Under the pieces are notes generated by a model. The model was not told the DNA's origin. It was given only the letters and a program-made list of their open reading frames with translations, and ran no database searches. From Bacteroidota bacterium (GTDB lineage Bacteria > Bacteroidota > Bacteroidia > Chitinophagales > LD1): 64,000 nucleotides of DNA. The DNA is taken from assembly GCA_947475165.1 (NCBI GenBank), contig CANJLD010000002.1, forward strand, positions 62,001 through 126,000, in the 5' to 3' direction. The position numbers and the translations under genes are program-made. Shown one piece after another: positions 3,034 through 44,176 of the stretch. The first letter of the stretch is position 1; every line of letters starts with the position of its first letter.

Positions 3034-3456
3034 TCAATCCAGCTTAAAACTTACCGGCAAATTAAAATAGACCTTGACTGGTTTGCCCCGTTGTTTAGCG
3101 GGTTTAAACTTAGGCAACAATTTTACCACACGCACTGCTTCTTTATCTAAACCGGGGCTCACTCCGCGTGCCACCACTATATTTTCAATCGAGCCATCTT
3201 CCAGTATTACGAAACGCAACAAAACTTTGCCCTGAATATTATTATCACGTTCCATTTGCGGGTACTGAATGGTGCGCTGAATAAACTTTAAAAATTCAAA
3301 ATCGCCATCCGGAAATTCCGCAGGCTGTTCTACTAAGGCGAAAACAGGCGTTTCAGTTTTTTCTTTAGCCTCCGGTTTGGCTACAGCAAAAGTGTCGGTC
3401 TGTGCCGAAAGGTAAACCGGAATTATAAAGAAAAGGATGGATAGATATTTCTTCAT
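3034..3456 (-). CDS. TonB C-terminal-domain protein (energy transducer-like)
   Basis: 141 residues from ATG 3456: a signal peptide (MKKYLSILFFIIPVYLSAQ) followed by a TonB C-terminal domain in which YPQMERDNNIQGKVLLRFVI and DGSIENIVVARGVSPGLDKEA are the recognisable conserved parts. Proteins of this type in Bacteroidota are secreted or periplasmic carriers of a TonB domain, often without the N-terminal TM and proline-rich arm of true TonB, so energy transduction is uncertain. An in-frame start at 3504 would add 16 poorly supported residues. The gene is transcribed away from the 21-bp repeat array at 3538. Confidence 0.8.
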   Translation of the reverse strand: MKKYLSILFFIIPVYLSAQTDTFAVAKPEAKEKTETPVFALVEQPAEFPDGDFEFLKFIQRTIQYPQMERDNNIQGKVLLRFVILEDGSIENIVVARGVSPGLDKEAVRVVKLLPKFKPAKQRGKPVKVYFNLPVSFKLD

Positions 3457-3537
3457 AACTATAAAAGTATGGAAAGTGAGGAAAGTAACAACCATCAGAT
3501 GCATATTACATAGGCGTTCTGCTTTTATGTTTTAATT

Positions 3538-3986
3538 CAATAGAATAATCAAATTATTGCATTGAATGACATAGAGAAGGGATTGAATGATAAGTATAGG
3601 GGATTGCATGACCATATTACGGCTTTGTATAAAAATAGTTTGGAGTTGATTGATATCTAGATGGTATAACATAATCATTATATAATATAAAAGAAACAAA
3701 ATGTTTAATTTAGTAATTAATATTTGCGAAAGTATAACAGAGTAATGGGATAGATTGAGTAACAATAAGGGTCTGATACTGTTCAATTGAGTGCTTATCT
3801 GAATAAAAAAATTCTGAGCTCATTCAATGAAGATATGTAGTCATTCAATCACATTATTTAGTCATTCTATCAAATCAACAAATTGTTCAACAGAAGTTCG
3901 AAAGCAATTAATTGAGTTTTGGGGTCAATCAGGAAAGATTCGGAGTCAAACAAATGGGTTAGGGAGTTAAACAAATCACCTTTTAC
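3538..3986. repeat. Two opposed arrays of degenerate 21-bp tandem units upstream of an HTH gene
   Basis: Left sub-array: seven consecutive 21-bp units starting at 3538, 3559, 3580, 3601, 3622, 3643 and 3664. Several carry the core GGATTGAATGA or a close variant. Right sub-array: eight consecutive 21-bp units starting at 3819, 3840, 3861, 3882, 3903, 3924, 3945 and 3966. The first units have GTCATTCAATC, the reverse complement of the left core, and later ones drift to GTCAATCAGG and GTCAAACAAA. The middle (3685-3818) holds weaker copies with small indels. The last unit ends 11 bp before the ATG at 3998. 21 bp is two helical turns, so repeated binding sites would fall on one DNA face. There are no spacers, so this is not CRISPR. 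Confidence 0.8.
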
Positions 3987-3997
3987 CAATATAAACT

Positions 3998-4378
3998 ATG
4001 AAAAAGAAGGCCACACTTGAGAAAGACATGCTGCATATCGGCACAATTGTTCGGGCAATAATGAAGGAACAGCGAGTAACCCACCGTAAACTTGGGCGAA
4101 TGCTGGGCTGGCATACTACCACCGTTACCATGATGCTTAAAAGGCGCATCTGGAGCATAGCCGAACTGGTGCAGGTAGGCAAAGCACTCAATTCAGATTT
4201 ACTGAAATACTTTTACCCCGTACCACCGGTACCGGTAGTACCGGTTACCCAGCTTGAAGCTGCAAAGCAGGAAAACGAAAACCTGAAGAAAGAACTGGCA
4301 GAAAAAAACGAAGAGCTTTTTAAGCTGCGCACAGAGAATGCGCTGTTCCGCGAGATGATGAAAGGAAAAGCGGAGTAA
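3998..4378 (+). CDS. Small helix-turn-helix protein with C-terminal coiled coil
   Basis: 126 residues. Residues about 12-65 (LHIGTIVRAIMKEQRVTHRK through the helix GWHTTTVTMMLKRR) look like a Cro/C1-type HTH, with the recognition helix around HTTTVTMML. A proline-rich linker (PVPPVPVVPV) leads to a charged heptad coiled coil (ENENLKKELAEKNEELFKLR), suggesting a dimer. The gene begins 11 bp after a 21-bp repeat array, so the likely role is binding those repeats, as an autoregulator or a nucleoid/partition-type binder. That role is inference from position; I recognise no named family member. Confidence 0.75.
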   Translation: MKKKATLEKDMLHIGTIVRAIMKEQRVTHRKLGRMLGWHTTTVTMMLKRRIWSIAELVQVGKALNSDLLKYFYPVPPVPVVPVTQLEAAKQENENLKKELAEKNEELFKLRTENALFREMMKGKAE

Positions 4379-28435: not shown

Positions 28436-28470
28436 ACAGACGACAGACGACAGACGACAGACGACAGACG
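28436..28470 (+). repeat. Five perfect copies of ACAGACG ending at the CapA ATG
   Basis: Units at 28436, 28443, 28450, 28457 and 28464, with no mismatch. The next base is the A of ATG 28471. A second start, ATG 28429, lies upstream and is in frame only with the present copy number, so slippage by one unit would uncouple it. Confidence 0.92.
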
Positions 28471-30423
28471 ATGAAAGTTTTCCTTCCTCGTCCTGTTTTC
28501 ATAGCCCTCATCTTTTTACTTTTTATTCAACCGGTGGTTGCACAGGAGAAAGAACCTCCGCTTATCACGTTCAAGTTGCGGATGCTGCAACAGAAGCACA
28601 ATGATGATATAGAGAAGATTGATTCGTTTGCCAAGCTGCATTTAATGATTGCAGGCAATATCTACCAAACCGAAAAACACGCTGCTTACGCTTACGATAA
28701 AACCACCGGTAAATACGATTACAGAAGTGAGTTGAAATACATTCAGCCTATTCTCAACCTTGGTGATGTTACCATTGCTAACATTAAAACATCGTTCAGC
28801 AACAACACAAAAAACATGTTTTCCTCGCCCGATGAATTCGGACTGGCGTTGAAATATGCCGGAATAAATGTGGCGCTGCACGCCAATGTACATACCGCCA
28901 ACATAAGCAAGGCAAACTTAAAACGCACCGATGAAGTGCTGGATGAATACGACATTCTTCACACCGGTGCTTTTATGGATAATATTCAGCGCAACGGCAA
29001 CTATCCGCTTATCATCAACAAAAAAGGTTTCCGCATTGCGGTGCTCAATTACACCAACCTCACCTCGCGCCCCACTATCTCGCGCGATTTTGTGATTAAC
29101 GAAATTGATAAAACCACCATCGACCGCGATATGCGTCTTGCTCACGCTTACAAACCCGATTTCACTATCGTGTATTTCGATTGGGGCGCAAACATGCAGG
29201 ATCTTCCATCGTACGCGCAGCAGGAACTTGCGCAATATGTTTTTCAGGCAGGAGCAAATCTGGTGGTAGGCACGCATCCCAATACACCTATGCGTATTGA
29301 TATGATGAACTACAGTTACAATGGCGAAGTGCGCGAAGGCATTATTGCATACTCCCTCGGAAATTTGGTGAGCAGCAACGAAGAAATACGCAACCGGAAC
29401 GGTTATGTGATTGATATGGAAATTCAGAAAAACAATTTTACTACCGAAACGCATGTAAGCGATTGGGGTGTAATTCCTGTTTATACTTATTACGATACTA
29501 CCACCATTCGCGGAATAACAAAAGTATTTTCGGTGCCGTGCGCTAATGTGGAGAGCGGAGATATTTTTCCCAACATTGCTTACATAGAAAAACGAAGAGC
29601 GGTAAACAGCGCGTATGAAGTGCGTAAACTTTTGGGCAACATAGCCGATGAAATTCAATACAATCTGAACGAGTTGATTGTAAACAACGTAGAGGAAAGC
29701 ATCAACATTACCAATGCATCGCTCAACAACAAATACAACCCAAAGAGTGAAAATGATGTGAAGCCGAGCGATGCACCGGTGCTGCCGGTGGCTACTGACG
29801 GCTCTAACAATCCGCCTTCGCTCGCTTTGCTTTACGAACAACCAACCGAAGCAAAAGCACCGGCACCGGTCAGCAAGAAAGCTGAAAAGAAAACCGAAAA
29901 AGATAATTCGTACTTAACCAGCAAGAAAAAAGCGGAAGCTGTTTTTGGAGATGCAAACACAAAAGAAACAGCACCGGTTCAAAATACGGTGGTGGAAAAT
30001 TCAAACAACAATACTGTTGCCGAAAACTCTCCTCCTATTAAGAAAGAAAAGTCGGTAAAAGAAAAAGTGCAGGAAACGGCAGTCGAAATTTCTTCGCAAG
30101 ATGCAAACGGAATTTCTACTAATGCAAATGGCGGACTTACCGGCACGGTAGAAATGACGAAAGCAAAAAATTTGGATTTACGGGTAGATACGTTTTACCG
30201 CATACAGTTTTACGCGCTCAAAACTTTTATTCCGCTTGATACGAATTACTATACGCACTTAAAAGGCTACGAAATACGCGTAGAAGAAGGCTTGTATAAA
30301 TATATGCTAGGCATGTACAAGAGTTACCAGGAATGTGAGGCCTATTGGAAAAGCCAGATTCAGCCCCGCTACAAACAAAGTTTTATTGTGAAATTTGTTG
30401 ACGGCAAAAGAATTGTAAAATGA
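28471..30423 (+). CDS. CapA-family (PGA_cap) metallophosphoesterase-like protein with C-terminal SPOR-like domain
   Basis: 650 residues from ATG 28471 (signal peptide MKVFLPRPVFIALIFLLFIQ). CapA/poly-gamma-glutamate-type domain motifs: LMIAGNIYQTEK, SPDEFGLALKYAGINVALHA, YFDWGANMQ, VVGTHPNTPM, AYSLGNLVSS. A low-complexity Lys/Glu/Asn region (~450-570) follows. The last ~75 residues (FYRIQFYALKTFIPLD to SFIVKFVDGKRIVK) resemble a SPOR peptidoglycan-binding domain. Capsule function is not shown here. An alternative start at 28429 would translate the ACAGACG repeat. ATGA overlap with coaX. Confidence 0.85.
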   Translation: MKVFLPRPVFIALIFLLFIQPVVAQEKEPPLITFKLRMLQQKHNDDIEKIDSFAKLHLMIAGNIYQTEKHAAYAYDKTTGKYDYRSELKYIQPILNLGDVTIANIKTSFSNNTKNMFSSPDEFGLALKYAGINVALHANVHTANISKANLKRTDEVLDEYDILHTGAFMDNIQRNGNYPLIINKKGFRIAVLNYTNLTSRPTISRDFVINEIDKTTIDRDMRLAHAYKPDFTIVYFDWGANMQDLPSYAQQELAQYVFQAGANLVVGTHPNTPMRIDMMNYSYNGEVREGIIAYSLGNLVSSNEEIRNRNGYVIDMEIQKNNFTTETHVSDWGVIPVYTYYDTTTIRGITKVFSVPCANVESGDIFPNIAYIEKRRAVNSAYEVRKLLGNIADEIQYNLNELIVNNVEESINITNASLNNKYNPKSENDVKPSDAPVLPVATDGSNNPPSLALLYEQPTEAKAPAPVSKKAEKKTEKDNSYLTSKKKAEAVFGDANTKETAPVQNTVVENSNNNTVAENSPPIKKEKSVKEKVQETAVEISSQDANGISTNANGGLTGTVEMTKAKNLDLRVDTFYRIQFYALKTFIPLDTNYYTHLKGYEIRVEEGLYKYMLGMYKSYQECEAYWKSQIQPRYKQSFIVKFVDGKRIVK

Positions 30424-32489: not shown

Positions 32490-33074
32490 GTGACCATTGA
32501 CCAACGACCATTGACTATTGCTTGTCGGCTGTTGTCTATTGTCTATTGTCTATCGTCTATCGTCTGTCTCTCCTCCTGCAACAACTCTCTTGAAGAAGCC
32601 AAACTGATTGTATCGCGTGCTAACGTGAACATTGAGAAAGGAAAAGATGTAGAAATAAATTATTCCGATAATGGTGTGGTGCGCATTCAGGCATCGGGAC
32701 CAACTGCCACACGCTTTAATACCGAAAAACCTTACCTCGAATTTTCGGACGGCATAAAAATTCTTTTTTACAACACTGCGCATGATGTGGAAAGTACGCT
32801 TACCGCAAAGCACGCCACGGCTGTAGAAAATAGCCACTCCATGACGGCCCGCGACAGTGTGGTGGTAGTAAATAACAAAGGCGAGGTGCTGAACACCGAT
32901 GAGTTGATTTGGGATGAAGAGAAAAAAATAATCTACAGCAACTCGTTTGTAAAAATTTCCACCACCGATGAAATTATTTACGGCACCGGTATGATTGCCA
33001 ACGAAAATTTTTCCGATTACACCATTAAGCACATTACCGGAAAAATAAAGGTAAAGACGAGCGAGTTGGAGTAA
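32490..33074 (+). CDS. lptC: LPS export ABC transporter periplasmic protein LptC (lipoprotein)
   Basis: 194 residues if started at GTG 32490, right after the OMP stop (TAA 32486-32488). Mature part NNSLEEAKLIVSRANVNIEK, then repeated beta strands typical of the LptC/OstA slipknot fold (LEFSDGIKILFYNT, LNTDELIWDEEKKIIYSN, IYGTGMIANENFSDYTI). CLSSC forms a lipobox, so it is probably a lipoprotein rather than a TM-anchored LptC. The N-terminus up to about Val25 is encoded entirely by 11 heptamer repeats. It bridges LPS transfer from LptB2FG to LptA. Confidence 0.85.
   Translation: MTIDQRPLTIACRLLSIVYCLSSIVCLSSCNNSLEEAKLIVSRANVNIEKGKDVEINYSDNGVVRIQASGPTATRFNTEKPYLEFSDGIKILFYNTAHDVESTLTAKHATAVENSHSMTARDSVVVVNNKGEVLNTDELIWDEEKKIIYSNSFVKISTTDEIIYGTGMIANENFSDYTIKHITGKIKVKTSELE
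32493..32569 (+). repeat. Eleven heptamer units encoding the LptC signal peptide
   Basis: Units in order: ACCATTG, ACCAACG, ACCATTG, ACTATTG, CTTGTCG, GCTGTTG, TCTATTG, TCTATTG, TCTATCG, TCTATCG, TCTGTCT, with no gap. Read in frame they give TIDQRPLTIACRLLSIVYC and on to LSSIVCL. Confidence 0.92.
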
Positions 33075-33079
33075 AAAGA

Positions 33080-33203
33080 CCACCCCTAAATCCCCTAAAG
33101 GGGACTTAAAAGACCACCCCCAAACCCCCTAAAGGGGGCTTAACAGCCAAAGACAAAATTTTGCATTTCTGTATTAAGTCCCCTTTAGGGGATTTAGGGG
33201 TGG
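33080..33203. repeat. Palindromic repeat cluster: two direct copies and one inverted copy
   Basis: Copy 1 (33080-33109) and copy 2 (33114-33143, slightly diverged) read CCACCCCTAAATCCCCTAAA then GGGGACTTAA. Copy 3 (33174-33203) is the inverted form. Each copy holds the mini-hairpin TCCCCTAAAGGGGA. The first copy starts 5 bp after the lptC stop. Part of the family also at 33393, 33478, 42415, 42838, 50659 and 50763. Confidence 0.9.
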
Positions 33204-33210
33204 TGTGATT

Positions 33211-33265
33211 TGTCACAGAATTGTCATTTTTTTCTCCCATCGCGTTTTTTTACAATTCTGTGACA
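33211..33265. repeat. 14-bp perfect inverted repeat with 27-bp loop
   Basis: Arms TGTCACAGAATTGT (33211-33224) and ACAATTCTGTGACA (33252-33265). The loop contains long T runs. It lies between the palindromic repeat cluster and the possible small RNA; its role is unknown. Confidence 0.7.
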
Positions 33266-33317
33266 CTTCTCATTTTTGGGTAACGTAAATTCGTATTGTA
33301 ATTCGTTCGTTTTAGCT

Positions 33318-33386
33318 GACCGGCTTTGAACCTATGAAAATTAATGCTGGTCGTCCCCCGGTGAAGAAATTCATCGGGGGTTTTTT
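33318..33386 (+). ncRNA. Possible small non-coding RNA, two hairpins ending in a terminator
   Basis: Hairpin 1: GACCGGC (33318-33324) pairs with GCTGGTC (33346-33352) around a 21-nt loop. Hairpin 2: CCCCCGGTGAA (33355-33365) pairs with TTCATCGGGGG (33370-33380), loop GAAA, then six T. No open reading frame leads into this terminator: lptC ends 280 bp earlier and repeats intervene. A start somewhere around 33280-33310 is guessed. No RNA family assigned. Confidence 0.4.
33355..33386 (+). terminator. Rho-independent terminator of the possible small RNA
   Basis: 11-bp GC-rich stem with a GAAA loop and a T6 tail (33381-33386). One G-T wobble in the stem. Confidence 0.85.
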
Positions 33387-33392
33387 AACCCA

Positions 33393-33506
33393 CCACCCCT
33401 AAATCCCCTAAAGGGGACTTAAATACAAACAGCCGGTGAATTTTTATCATCGGCTGTTTGTATTTTGTATTGGCTGCTAAGTCCCCTTTAGGGGATTTAG
33501 GGGTTG
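33393..33506. repeat. Inverted pair of the palindromic repeat around an inner hairpin
   Basis: The left copy (33393-33422, plus) and right copy (33478-33506, inverted) enclose 55 bp. That interior folds by AAATACAAACAGCCG (33421-33435) pairing with CGGCTGTTTGTATTT (33451-33465). The right copy ends 3 bp before the stop codon of the minus-strand gene at 33510. It has the layout of a short non-autonomous element. Confidence 0.88.
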
Positions 33507-33509
33507 TTA

Positions 33510-34496
33510 CTACTCTACATTAGTAAACGTAATTTTAAAATGCGAAGGCCCTACACCCACATTGCGGATATTTAAAAAATCGCCCGAGGTGTTTAAACCG
33601 GTTAGTGTTGCAAACTCGGCCAAGGTTTTGGTTACTGTGCCAATGGCTACATCAAACAGGGGAGAGCCCGGAACGTAAGCTAAGTTAGGCGCAGCGCTGG
33701 CATACAACTGCACCGCGTTACCGGTTATTTCAATTACTGCTTCCGATGCCGGTGTTGGCGTTATACCGGTTAAATCTATATACACTATTGCCGGACCAAC
33801 CACATCGCCTTCGCGCTCGGCATTGTTACCGGTGCCACCTCCGGTTGGGTTATCGTCAATACCGCGGTTGCCTTCGTATTCATCAAACAAATCGTTATCG
33901 GCAGTTCCTTTAAGCACGCGCATTTGTGCATCTAAAGTTTCGTTTAAAAAATCATCAGTGTCAGCCATCAGCGCATCTACTTTTTTGCCCTGCGCTGCTT
34001 TTGCACTCACTTTGCGCTTAGGCAATTCAAGAATAGCCAGATACTGCTGCGCTTTTAAATTAAGGTTGGTTATATCGGTAGCAGTAATACCGTGCGGTGC
34101 CAGTGCCGCACCGGCTAAACTGGCTAACCGGTGAACCTGCATGGCTTGTGCATAAGCCACTCTATCGTGCGCGCTAACAAACTCTGTTTTAGTAAAATAA
34201 ATTTCGCCCTGGCTACCGGTGTCGCCCAGTGTTTTGTAATACGCAGCTCCGCCTCCGCTTATGCGCAATGCCAGCGTGGTCATTTCATCGCGCTTTATTT
34301 GCTTGGCTTCGGTGTAACCGGTAGTGTCTGCCGTGGCAAGGGCATCGGCTTCAAAGATGTCGGCAAGCAAAACATCTAAATCGGTTTTGTAATCGGTAAT
34401 AATGCTGAAGAGCGCGGCTAACACCGCCAGTTTTTCGGCAAGAAACTGCTGCACTTTTAAATACATGCCCACCTTCGCTTCCTGTTTGTCGTTCAT
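33510..34496 (-). CDS. Unknown protein, helical N-terminal part and beta C-terminal part
   Basis: 328 residues from ATG 34496 (MNDKQEAKVGMYLKVQQFL). An in-frame start at 34523 is less likely because the A-rich leader typical here precedes 34496. Residues ~1-200 are helical (LAVLAALFSIITDYKTDLDV; LNLKAQQYLAILELPKR). A Gly/Asn linker (NPTGGGTGNN) follows, then a beta domain ending FKITFTNVE. No signal peptide and no recognised family. Codon use (many GCC, ACC) differs a little from neighbours. It is divergent from the 21-bp array and HTH gene. Confidence 0.65.
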   Translation of the reverse strand: MNDKQEAKVGMYLKVQQFLAEKLAVLAALFSIITDYKTDLDVLLADIFEADALATADTTGYTEAKQIKRDEMTTLALRISGGGAAYYKTLGDTGSQGEIYFTKTEFVSAHDRVAYAQAMQVHRLASLAGAALAPHGITATDITNLNLKAQQYLAILELPKRKVSAKAAQGKKVDALMADTDDFLNETLDAQMRVLKGTADNDLFDEYEGNRGIDDNPTGGGTGNNAEREGDVVGPAIVYIDLTGITPTPASEAVIEITGNAVQLYASAAPNLAYVPGSPLFDVAIGTVTKTLAEFATLTGLNTSGDFLNIRNVGVGPSHFKITFTNVE

Positions 34497-34654
34497 ATTG
34501 TTATTAGTTTTAGTGAGCCGCAAACATTTGAAAAACGTATTACGTAATTTTTAATACTGTTTTATTTTATGTAGTATTTATTTTTAAGAAATTATTACGG
34601 GTTTTCTGCCGCTATCTTTTATTTTCTTAAACCCAACAAGGCTTTAGAACTATT

Positions 34655-34885
34655 CAGGTAACATAGTTTTGCTGACAGGTCAAATAGTTTTGCTGACAGG
34701 TCAGATAGTTTTACCGCGAGGTCAAATAGTTTTGCTGACAGGTCAGGTAGTTTTACCAAAAGGTTGCATTTTTCAACCATTAGGTTTAACTATTCTACCA
34801 AAAGATAATATAATGAAACATTAATATTCATTTAACCGACCAAAAGGTAAGCTTGTTTTACTTTTACGCCATATAGTTTTATCAA
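34655..34885 (+). repeat. Eleven in-phase 21-bp tandem units (left sub-array, HTH locus 2)
   Basis: Units start every 21 bp from 34655 to 34865. The first five are well conserved around AGGTCAAATAGTTTTGCTGA, with a variant ending TTTTACCAA. Later units drift but keep phase: the unit at 34844 has AAGGTAAGCTTGTTTTAC and the one at 34865 has CCATATAGTTTTATCAA. No intervening spacers. Confidence 0.88.
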
Positions 34886-35039
34886 AACAAGGTGTGGATG
34901 TAAAAATATAAGCAGTAGAAATAAAAAAATTGACAAGATGACTTTAAAAACAATGTTTAGCTGTCAATTAAACCGGTATACAATCGAAATGAAAAGTAAT
35001 TGAACCAGTGAATATCCTTCACCATGCAGAGGAAACCAG

Positions 35040-35102
35040 TTGTGGTATAGCAAAAATGAATCGCGGTATAACAAAATTCACCTGCGGCATTAAAAAAATA
35101 AC
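35040..35102 (-). repeat. Three 21-bp units in opposite orientation (right sub-array, HTH locus 2)
   Basis: Units at 35040, 35061 and 35082 share GGTATARCAAAA or its variant. The reverse complement of the middle unit (GTTATACCGCGA) aligns with AGTTTTACCGCGA of the left sub-array, so the orientation is inverted. The last unit ends 16 bp before ATG 35119. Confidence 0.75.
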
Positions 35103-35118
35103 CTAACCCTTTTATAAA

Positions 35119-35463
35119 ATGAAACTAAACGTAAAACAACTGCTCCGCGAACGACAAGTTTTAAAGCCGCATGGTTTTTTAGTTAAGAACGGTTTTAAAA
35201 AGCACGAAGCCGTAGCCCTGCTTAAAGACAAAGCCGACCGCATTCAGTTTAAGCACCTATCGCAACTGTGCCGCATTTTGTGGTGCACGCCCGACCAGCT
35301 TTTTGTATTAGATAAAGCCGAAGAAAAAGCACCCCTGCCGCCCAACCACCCTTTGCACAAACTGCAAGCCCGCACCGATGCGCCCGATATAATAAAGAAG
35401 CTGCGCCAACTGCCCCTCGAAAAGCTAGAGGAGTTGGGTAGGTTTTTGGAGGAGGGGAAGTAG
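35119..35463 (+). CDS. Small XRE/Cro-type helix-turn-helix protein
   Basis: 114 residues. Residues 1-65 are a Cro/C1 HTH: MKLNVKQLLRERQVLKPHGF, KNGFKKHEAVALLKDKADRI (recognition helix) and FKHLSQLCRILWCTPDQLF. The tail (PLEKLEELGRFLEEGK) is helical and may dimerise. It begins 16 bp after a 21-bp repeat array and is divergent from an unknown gene. Binding to its own repeats is inferred from position. It is followed by a strong terminator, so this is a one-gene unit. Confidence 0.85.
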   Translation: MKLNVKQLLRERQVLKPHGFLVKNGFKKHEAVALLKDKADRIQFKHLSQLCRILWCTPDQLFVLDKAEEKAPLPPNHPLHKLQARTDAPDIIKKLRQLPLEKLEELGRFLEEGK

Positions 35464-42868: not shown

Positions 42869-44176
42869 TTAATTAGCCAGCCAGCCCTGCGGGTCCATCT
42901 TATCTTTTCCTTTCCAAATTTCTACATGCACCTTGGTAAGGTTTTCGGCTTTATCTACATGAAGTTTGCCCAGCGATTGTTTGGTAGTTAAAACCTGACC
43001 GGTCTTTACCAATACGTTTTCGATGTTGGAATACACCGTAAAATATTCGCCGTGTTTTACAATCACACAGTTTTGTGTGGTAGGAAGAAAAAAAACACTC
43101 ACCACCGTTCCGCCAAAAACCACTCGGGCTTCGGCACCGGCTTCGGTCTGTATATCCACTCCGTTGTTCTCTACCATTACACCCTTCAGCACCGGATGCT
43201 CGTGTTTGCCGAAAGAGGCAACAATGTGTCCGCGCAAAACCGGCCAAGGCAGTTTACCCTGATTACTCGAAAAGTTTTTCGACAGTGCCTGCTCTGCCGG
43301 TGTAAGCGGCATGGTTTCGTTGCTTCCTTTTTTAACGGCAACATCTTTTGTAGTTCCCACATTGCGTTTGGCGGCTTCGCGCGCCTGCCGTATTTCTTCT
43401 TCAATAATTGTTTGAATGCGATTGTTGAGCTGAGCCATCGCTTTGTTTTTTTCCTGCTGTGCTTTGCGCAGCTTCCTTTCTTTTTCTAATAATAAAGCCA
43501 CCGCTGCATCTTTTTCTTTTCGCTCGTTTTCTAATTCTGCTTTTTGTGCGGTTTGTTTTACCAGCAAATTTTCTTTCTCCTGTTTGTTCTCCTGCAAATC
43601 TTCCTTTTTTACTTCCAGCTCTCCTATATTTTGCTGAATCATCTTCGCCTGACCTCTCCGGTACTCGGCAATTTTCAGCAGGTAATTGTATCTGCGTATG
43701 CCATCGTAAAACGAATTGGACGAAAGCAAAAACACCACCTGGTTTTGTAGCGTAAGGTTCTGATAACTCTTGCGAAGCATACCGGCATATTCCGTTTTCA
43801 TTTTTTCTACTTCGGCAGCCTTCTTCGAAATCTGTTCGGATGTTTCAGTAATGGTTTCGTCTAAATCATCAATCTGGTTATTGATGTTGCCAATCAGCCC
43901 CTCGCGCGATTTTATTTTGGCTTGCAGCGCAAGAATTTCGCCCATGCTCTTCTGCTTTTTCGCGCTGTTGTTTTTAATAGCAGCTTCTATCACTTTAATT
44001 TCATCCTGCAGCTTTTTCATTTGCTGCTGAAGCTGTTCCTTTTTCTGTTTGGGAGTTTGGGAGAAAGCGGCAGTAGGCAGTAGGCAGCAGGCAATAAGCA
44101 GTATGCAATAGACAGTAGGCAAAAGCAGTAGCCTCCTATTTATTTCGTATTTCGTATTTCGTATTTCGTATTTCAA
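42869..44176 (-). CDS. envC: EnvC-like murein hydrolase activator (coiled coil + LytM/M23 domain)
   Basis: 435 residues from TTG 44176, overlapping the DUF4292 stop. A signal peptide (LLLLPTVYCILLIACCLLPT) encoded by heptamer repeats, then a long coiled coil (~40-260), then an M23 domain from LPWPVLRGHIVASFGKHEHP. The metal-binding H of HxxxD is replaced (NNGVDI), and HxH is reduced to KVHVEIW, so it is probably a non-catalytic activator of amidases at division, like E. coli EnvC. It is the last gene of the 49697-42869 operon. Confidence 0.87.
   Translation of the reverse strand: MKYEIRNTKYEINRRLLLLPTVYCILLIACCLLPTAAFSQTPKQKKEQLQQQMKKLQDEIKVIEAAIKNNSAKKQKSMGEILALQAKIKSREGLIGNINNQIDDLDETITETSEQISKKAAEVEKMKTEYAGMLRKSYQNLTLQNQVVFLLSSNSFYDGIRRYNYLLKIAEYRRGQAKMIQQNIGELEVKKEDLQENKQEKENLLVKQTAQKAELENERKEKDAAVALLLEKERKLRKAQQEKNKAMAQLNNRIQTIIEEEIRQAREAAKRNVGTTKDVAVKKGSNETMPLTPAEQALSKNFSSNQGKLPWPVLRGHIVASFGKHEHPVLKGVMVENNGVDIQTEAGAEARVVFGGTVVSVFFLPTTQNCVIVKHGEYFTVYSNIENVLVKTGQVLTTKQSLGKLHVDKAENLTKVHVEIWKGKDKMDPQGWLAN
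44068..44176 (-). repeat. Two heptamer blocks encoding the N-terminus and signal peptide of EnvC
   Basis: 44142-44176: four ATTTCGT units and a fifth degenerate one covering the start codon. 44068-44123: CGGCAGT, AGGCAGT, AGGCAGC, AGGCAAT, AAGCAGT, ATGCAAT, AGACAGT, AGGCAAA. On the coding strand they read as CTACTGC/CTATTGC units giving PTVYCILLIACCLLPTA. Confidence 0.9.

Follow-up and report, generated by a model that had tools for sequence, protein, structure and literature searches.

Arrays of 21-bp units in a Bacteroidota genus, apparently an undescribed class of chromosomal loci, often beside genes for small HTH proteins and other protein families

Direct-repeat arrays upstream of a DNA-binding gene or operon are a hallmark of the ParR/parC partition systems, where the repeats measure 11 bp in R1, 20 bp in pSK41 and 17 bp in pCW3. 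According to the account in PMC9426499, ParR assembles on the repeated sites and each ParR tested bound the repeats of its own family only; the systems described there are plasmid-borne, have a ParM motor, typically use ribbon-helix-helix proteins and vary in repeat length from one to the next. The arrays reported here have the same upstream placement but are chromosomal, are associated with Cro/C1-like, winged-helix or unclassified proteins, and keep a fixed 21 bp across unrelated families. The StbA/stbDRs system of R388 likewise combines direct repeats around the promoter of its own operon with copies of the motif at other promoters, and StbA gives stability without needing the putative motor StbB (PMC3098194). 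As presented in that source, it is a single plasmid system with 9-bp repeats two bases apart, whereas the arrays described here amount to many different systems in one genome. pSK1 Par, RacA and RocS are composed of an N-terminal HTH and a coiled-coil oligomerisation region and serve in DNA segregation or anchoring; their HTH is described as MerR-type and winged, and their C-terminal part as disordered or membrane-binding (PMC11500499). P0001, the protein encoded next to the first of our arrays, looks Cro/C1-like and has no Pfam match to a MerR-type winged HTH, to DUF536 or to a C-terminal anchor. We know of no 21-bp arrays for pSK1 Par, RacA or RocS.

Iterons, the direct repeats at plasmid origins such as that of R6K, are spaced about two helical turns apart and are bound by the product of the adjacent gene. 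Unlike our arrays, they belong to an origin and serve Rep initiators as binding sites; the proteins scanned from the window and from the two further array-associated families, C and E, gave no Rep domain. Cro/C1-type (XRE) autoregulators such as SinR and P22 C2 have the HTH fold in common with the proteins at our two loci (by Pfam for P0002, by profile and a weak Foldseek match for P0001), but act on a few dimeric operators, not on long head-to-tail arrays in exact two-turn register. We know of no system with a density of about 30 loci per Mb in which several unrelated protein families have one fixed unit length in common. A literature search of titles and abstract openings, with few subscription journals and no bioRxiv preprints, returned nothing on 21-bp arrays in Bacteroidota. 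The arrays are apparently a large, undescribed class in a Bacteroidota genus.

Two such loci, A and B, are present in the window, the 64,000-nucleotide stretch of DNA that was analysed (Table 1). Both lie between divergent genes, as proposed in the preliminary description, and both show an exact lag of 21 bp, the top one among lags 14-63. Lag-21 identity over the intergenic stretch of locus A was 47.9%, compared to 29.6 +/- 2.0% in dinucleotide shuffles, and at locus B (34524-35118) it was 49.0% compared to 28.6 +/- 1.9%; neither value was reached in any of 2000 shuffles. At locus A, 7 of the 13 matches to TTGAATGA with up to 2 mismatches are in one phase, both exact matches being among them, and the remaining 6 are out of phase. 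The phase is kept over a gap of 105 bp (5 x 21 bp, 3646 to 3751). The reverse core TCATTCAA has 6 of its 12 approximate matches in one phase, and the two sub-arrays are more similar when compared opposed (0.57) than parallel (0.32). At locus B all 7 matches to AGGTCAAATAGTTTT with up to 4 mismatches are in one phase (34656 to 34740, 34845, 34866), again across 105 bp (5 x 21 bp, 34740 to 34845). Its middle stretch is oriented like the left one (0.59 vs 0.44), and its right stretch matches in neither orientation (0.18 and 0.30). Locus B is thus one orientation plus a weak third stretch, so that the opposed sub-arrays first ascribed to both loci are found at A and are unsupported at B. The unit sequences of the two loci do differ, as had been stated. 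RNA folding of array A is no better than that of shuffles (z 0.35), that of array B is modestly better (z -2.1, equalled by 9 of 200 shuffles), and Rfam gave no match within the window at gathering scores. Between the genes to the left of locus B, window positions 33074-33512 carry 34-bp repeats and stretches around AAGTCCCCTTTAGGGG.

Table 1. Features of loci A and B (positions in the window).
Feature	Position	Strand	Description
Intergenic stretch of locus A	3505-3997		between divergent genes
Locus A left sub-array	3541..3667	+	21-bp units, core TTGAATGA at 3541, 3562, 3583, 3604, 3625, 3646; another in-phase core at 3751
Locus A right sub-array, opposed	3820..3987	-	core TCATTCAA at 3820, 3841, 3862, 3883, 3925, 3946
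P0001, family HTH-A	3998..4378	+	Cro/C1-like HTH at the N-terminus, coiled-coil-like helix of 43 residues at the C-terminus; proposed to bind array A
Divergent neighbour of locus A, TonB C-terminal domain protein	3034..3504	-	flank, not considered part of the system
Intergenic stretch of locus B	34497-35118		between divergent genes
Locus B array	34645..34887	+	units of 21 bp, AGGTCAAATAGTTTT..., strong between 34656 and about 34770, then drifting yet in phase to about 34887
Locus B third stretch	35002..35106	no strand	weak 21-bp rows (GGTATAACAAAATTC) adjoining the HTH gene
P0002, family HTH-B (Pfam HTH_26), short tail	35119..35463	+	proposed to bind at locus B
Divergent partner at locus B	33510..34496	-	328-aa protein resembling array-associated family E by eye

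P0001 has no HTH match in Pfam. Its family profile matches Cro/C1-type domains such as P22 C2 (E about 0.001), and its single-sequence model (pLDDT 79.8) consists of an HTH-like bundle and one 43-residue C-terminal helix. In Foldseek, Cro/C1-type proteins were top-ranked with this model, yet the best E-value was only 0.014. Profile and model together suggest that P0001 is a Cro/C1-type HTH protein ending in a single long helix. The Pfam match of P0002 is to HTH_26 and exceeds the cutoff (27.5 vs 22 bits). Of the small HTH gene with a helical tail that both loci had been said to adjoin, the HTH is found at both and the tail in the P0001 model. The two proteins gave no BLASTP alignment and an hhalign probability of 2.3%, at variance with the idea of one family. 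Judged from their sequences, A and B form one class of locus rather than one protein family, no relation between their HTH proteins being demonstrable. No ParA- or ParM-type motor was found among the locus A neighbours scanned (Obg GTPase, TonB_C and EamA proteins) or among the two scanned at locus B, which also lack a Pfam match. The divergent 328-aa protein of locus B has no library match, and its AlphaFold model (mean pLDDT 36) is unusable.

Families were seeded from array-bearing genes, and further members were found by protein similarity alone. The P0001-family alignment (A1) has matches in 12 of the 18 genomes of the genus, and P0002 has matches in 26 of 60 genomes. An array was counted as present for HTH-A, HTH-B and family E when 21/42-bp periodicity reached z >= 6. 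Among 42 HTH-A places, 8 had no locus and 3 partial ones (L065-L067) were dropped; of the remaining 31, L002 had too little upstream DNA. Arrays are found upstream of 21 of the 30 testable HTH-A genes and downstream of 0/17, and upstream of 12/14 divergent HTH-B genes and downstream of 0/14. Among the other multiples of 3 tested as lags, none attains z 6 upstream of any of these HTH-A or divergent HTH-B genes. Only 3 of 25 conserved HTH-B orthologues pass the threshold; when these are pooled, the top lag is 21 (mean z 2.42), followed by 42 (1.77) and then a value of 0.56, the orthologues not being independent. Outside the genus, one of 15 HTH-A homologues reaches the threshold (L108, z 6.0), while L110 and L113 reach z 5.2, L110 with a control lag at 4.7. 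The 21-bp periodicity anticipated upstream of HTH homologues is therefore borne out for most HTH-A and divergent HTH-B genes but not for most conserved HTH-B genes or for HTH-A genes outside the genus. Homologues with no strong array number 9/30 in family A, 2/14 among divergent B genes, 22/25 among conserved B orthologues and 14/15 among the outside-genus A genes. An HTH-A sub-group with a KVHIGEKI-like N-terminus (L006, L007, L014, L063, L072) has no upstream array at z 6 and forms a natural comparison group. The related HTH-A genes L122 (G000 C16) and L123 (G000 C37) have near-identical arrays, both at 109-501 of their contig, which suggests a duplicated segment that broke the assembly. HTH loci were also found in records CANJVG010000035.1 (isolate RH-23may17-913) and CAIYOV010000430.1 (isolate LJ_bin-3609), both Bacteroidetes metagenome-assembled genomes.

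Two other protein families carry arrays more regularly. Family C is a 238-aa protein with a coiled-coil-like N-terminal stretch, a repetitive linker and a winged-helix-like C-terminal domain, for which the domain scan gave weak wHTH/MarR matches under cutoff. Its array lies within the coding linker of its own gene. All 16 rows of the genus search (15 genes) have a 42/21-bp array (z 6.9 to 22.8), placed inside one open frame in 13/15, the other two frames being interrupted or split. When the 13 arrays in open frame were pooled, close paralogues L191 and L194 included, lag-42 identity was 0.640/0.634/0.615 at codon positions 1/2/3. In protein-repeat controls from the same genus, several of them from one gene, position 3 was the lowest in 13/14, in two only slightly; the exception is L171 (0.46/0.22/0.29). 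Since the third codon position of family C is about as conserved as the first two, unlike that of the controls, the repeat is kept at the DNA level.

Family E is a protein of 200-250 aa for which scans of Pfam, NCBIfam, PADLOC and PDB gave no consistent relatives and no recognised DNA-binding domain; individual members had scattered Pfam matches (best E 0.0096). Of 40 genes, 3 with <260 bp upstream and 4 with too little downstream DNA were excluded from the respective counts; arrays (z >= 6) precede 36/37 testable genes and follow 0/36. Family E is present in 2/247 genomes drawn across the phylum and in 7/30 of the family. In G216, from another class of the phylum, 10/11 family E genes have upstream arrays. 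Self-palindromic units, defined by a score above 0.54 (the 95th percentile of column-shuffled matrices), occur in 26/36 E arrays, 4/21 HTH-A arrays and 0/16 HTH-B arrays. A symmetry that depends on the family would be expected if different proteins bind the units.

The frequency of arrays was determined by scanning lags 14-63 at z >= 7 over 1.187 Mb of the host genome, G000. Two signals at lag 63 that passed the threshold were left out because they are repeats in the coding sequence of long ORFs (840 aa, C1 226k; 1247 aa, C8 147k). The sample holds 35 arrays of 21, 42 or 63 bp (24 in 787 kb and 11 in 400 kb), or about 30 per Mb, which extrapolates to about 114 in the 3.88-Mb genome. Their surroundings are ordinary chromosomal genes, and the contigs that carry them reach 317 kb in length. 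Six adjoin HTH-A or HTH-B genes, 2 are inside family C genes, 5 are next to family E (3 family E, 2 E-like by eye), 3 accompany other small genes of 80, 155 and 282 aa, following rather than preceding the 155-aa one, and 19 have no obvious owner gene. With 29/35 arrays elsewhere than beside HTH-A/B, and with arrays at families C, E and others, small HTH proteins as such are not what defines an array; arrays beside unrelated genes were an outcome that the preliminary description had itself named as speaking against it. An array is contained in 31 of 130 intergenic gaps of 250-1200 bp between the ORFs called in this analysis. Ownerless arrays lie in convergent gaps in 10/19 cases, compared to 17/97 array-free gaps of 250-1000 bp (p 0.002; 9/16 when only gaps up to 1000 bp are taken), a test made once the pattern had been noticed and based on ORFs of at least 100 aa. 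Relatives within the genus had 5 arrays in 100 kb (G010), 3 in 100 kb (G004), 1 in 67 kb (G005), 1 in 100 kb (G009) and 0 in 100 kb each (G016 and G007), so array density varies strongly even inside the genus. G018, of the same family, had none in 100 kb outside a 404-aa ORF, and G031, of the same order, had 0 in 100 kb.

The unit length of 21 bp, claimed as fixed for the two loci, proved to be a general rule across the class. Over 49 array pieces the mean z is 9.1 at lag 21, 11.0 at lag 42, -1.6 at lag 10 and -1.4 at lag 11, and neither identity nor AA/TT phasing at 10-11 bp was found in them. Since 21 bp is two turns of B-DNA, this exact spacing with no 10-11 bp component points to identical sites on one face and not to DNA bent by phased tracts; intrinsic curvature is ruled out as the basis of the arrays. 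Outside ORFs >=344 aa, every signal with z >= 7 in the 787-kb host sample and the relatives' samples is at 21/42 or 41/43 bp, while the other 400-kb host sample, counted irrespective of ORFs, gave five signals at lags 15, 24, 51 and 54. A unit length varying freely between loci, the feature of minisatellites (VNTRs), was not observed. Coiled-coil heptads in coding DNA were rejected as an artefact, the window arrays being intergenic and the third codon position of family C about as conserved as the others. Four lag-21 signals at G000 C2 (40.1k, 40.5k, 94.5k, 223.4k; z 6.2-6.9) were left out as under the counting threshold; three are in long ORFs or heptad-rich coding DNA and the fourth is near 7-bp repeats. 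A regular 30-kb spacing of the C2 arrays fails for all eight taken together.

Some repeats of other lengths were also noted. Arrays of 41 bp, close to four helical turns, occur in the host at C3 (about 81.9k and 251.0k) and C1 (124.9k), and the two on C3 look like one unit on opposite strands. A 43-bp array at C2 51.6-51.85k, about 10 kb before base 1 of the window, precedes an E-like-looking 396-aa gene. Tandem repeats of 7 bp, one third of 21 bp, are found in the window at 28436-28471, 44141-44174, 15368, 15518, 31168, 32532 and 44069; two are perfect (ACAGACG x5.1 and TATTTCG x4.9).

Each unit sequence had been taken as specific to its HTH protein, and a consensus that tracks the recognition helix had been named as the check. 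Over 37 HTH-linked arrays, the more alike two proteins are, the more alike their units (Mantel r 0.495, 0/5000 permutations): mean unit similarity is about 0.31 at protein scores below 0.4, 0.63 at 0.6-0.8 (n 14) and 0.75 at 0.8-1.0 (n 6). This set counted 60 coding bases as upstream and thereby has one HTH-B array (L052) more than the position counts. The correlation for the 36 family E arrays is 0.276 (0/5000 permutations). Five HTH-A loci from three genomes, with recognition helices 91-100% identical, have similar units (0.63-0.99). Among 14 close pairs, unit-by-unit homology is kept in 8 at p < 0.05; shared descent explains part of the tracking, which is not separable from it. In the other 6 pairs, unit-by-unit homology is undetectable and consensus similarity is kept, as in L259/L252 (0.82), L078/L084 (0.59), L230/L232 (0.68) and the apparently orthologous L008/L009 (consensus 0.86, unit-by-unit p 0.44).

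The recognition helix gives a partial r of 0.11 with the unit given the rest of the HTH, compared to 0.47 the other way round. Since it adds so little, co-evolution of helix and unit is unproven; the consensus follows the helix no further than general relatedness, and a recognition-helix code is not supported beyond it. Similar helices can go with different units, as in L001/L003 (0.24) and in L010 compared with L013, L124 and L082 (0.27-0.32). The upstream region of L010 has two sub-arrays with different units, to which its low similarity is partly due; the proximal one gives 0.43-0.52 with these three and is nearest to the unit of its relative L013 (0.52). Units are mostly private to their locus and follow the protein among close relatives; at least 17/40 arrays share their unit with another place in the genome.

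These shared units were found by comparing 40 arrays (the 35 of the sample and 5 from other contigs or stretches) to the host genome by BLAST (E <= 1e-3). At least 13/40 match another place in the genome (6/23 and 7/17, with the best 40 of 54 and the best 40 of 51 candidates scored); one of them, C2:126.7k, matches arrays of paralogous HTH-A genes. Matrix comparison added two pairs that BLAST did not list (0.85 and 0.83; shuffled columns gave at most 0.61 in 20 rounds), and it is the two methods together that give the figure of 17. The remaining 23/40, locus A among them, have no partner among the matches scored. For locus B, the match is an array at C15:85.4k (E 5e-6; matrix 0.72; 1 outside match by pattern, 0 for the reversed-pattern control), which lies about 350 bp upstream of a gene. 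The array next to family E at C3:186.5k is found again on C12 (36.7-36.9k; L298 about 2115-2325), flanked there by two ORFs that we take to encode malate synthase and isocitrate lyase, and lying before the latter. The partner places C7:162k, C10, C11, C13, C27 and C34 are BLAST matches only. The locus-A core pattern with up to 3 mismatches has 180 genome matches, mostly scattered, compared to 88 for the reversed control. C23:23.0k was rejected as a partner of locus A: its cores are in phase, but matrix similarity is <=0.40 and BLAST support is absent. Universal pairing, in which each ownerless array would be expected to have a partner, was likewise rejected with at least 17/40 paired, and with 23 arrays lacking a detected partner, bridging may not be general.

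On balance we lean towards the reading that the arrays are mostly private multi-site DNA platforms, bound by dedicated proteins and serving mainly to cluster or bridge chromosomal sites. With one unit every 21 bp, every copy would show the same face of the DNA, and a dedicated sequence-specific protein would bind the copies side by side, the coiled-coil or helical tail of the binder holding neighbouring subunits together. Side-by-side binding is the simplest reading of the two-turn spacing, of the DNA-binding and coiled-coil-like architecture of families A and C, and of the place of the arrays at the gene start. In HTH-A, HTH-B and the winged-helix family C, the gene that adjoins or encloses the array most likely encodes this binder; DNA binding by family E is itself presumed. 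A protein patch upstream of its own gene should limit its expression, and the position of the arrays thus points to autoregulation for A and B, and for E if E binds DNA. The main role of the class would nevertheless be to cluster or bridge addressed sites rather than to act as ordinary operators, which fits better with arrays in family-C coding DNA, often between convergent genes and in distant matching copies. A bolder version, which we hold only as a speculation, has about a hundred address arrays, each with its own small protein and many repeated at a distance; matched arrays would be pulled together, folding the chromosome by sequence-addressed staples, and unrelated families would have converged on the two-turn geometry.

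Plain multi-operator autoregulation, in which a protein represses its own and the divergent promoter via many weak sites and the distant copies are a small regulon, is a serious though less probable explanation. The arrays of A, B and E are upstream of the start codon and not downstream, the HTH-A profile matches repressor-type domains, and both the C15 partner array and the C12 array, before the presumed isocitrate lyase ORF, have a gene after them. It sits poorly with family-C arrays inside coding sequence and with 10/19 ownerless arrays in convergent gaps; promoter-like matches around locus A (4) are also no more than in shuffles (4.3 +/- 2.3), by a pattern from which Bacteroidota promoters differ. 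That the arrays are a satellite-like by-product of little function, left by an amplification that copies 21-bp steps from an arbitrary seed, seems unlikely to us. Some arrays are very regular and ownerless, with a 42-bp alternation like that of a young tandem duplication, most sequences are private, as seeds would be, and arrays of 41 and 43 bp exist; but such a process does not account for the upstream placement at E, A and B genes, for a consensus kept in 6/14 pairs with no detectable unit-by-unit homology, or for the dominance of one period outside long ORFs.

The spacing common to very different units and gene families might instead reflect a general factor that reads helical phasing or DNA shape, with no dedicated protein per array. 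We consider this improbable: 10-11 bp identity and AA/TT phasing are absent, a reader of phasing only needs no repeated private sequence, and both the symmetry and the sequence of the units go with the gene family and with close relatives. Least plausible, and in our view hardly credible, are centromere-like partition sites of integrated or former plasmids. As described in PMC9426499 and PMC3098194, the plasmid centromeres of ParR/parC and StbA have a similar anatomy, in which the repeats precede the gene or operon of the protein that binds them. The arrays, however, number about 30 per Mb among ordinary chromosomal genes, and the window neighbours scanned include no ParA- or ParM-type motor. 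P0001 and one family-E protein had no match among 72,556 plasmid records (PLSDB), nor did that family-E protein among 50,697 phage records or P0001 among viral contigs; the formerly mobile unit considered in the preliminary description is not supported by these searches.

The arrays suggest many separate protein-and-address pairs on one bacterial chromosome, and they draw attention to a third protein family, E, whose genes retain such arrays in a different class of the phylum. To our knowledge, little is known of nucleoid architecture in Bacteroidota. Should every array have a protein of its own that binds it, one genus would offer dozens of natural, mutually distinct protein-and-site pairs of one geometry. 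Such pairs would let the divergence of DNA recognition be read, and would be a candidate for sequence-addressed chromosome organisation.
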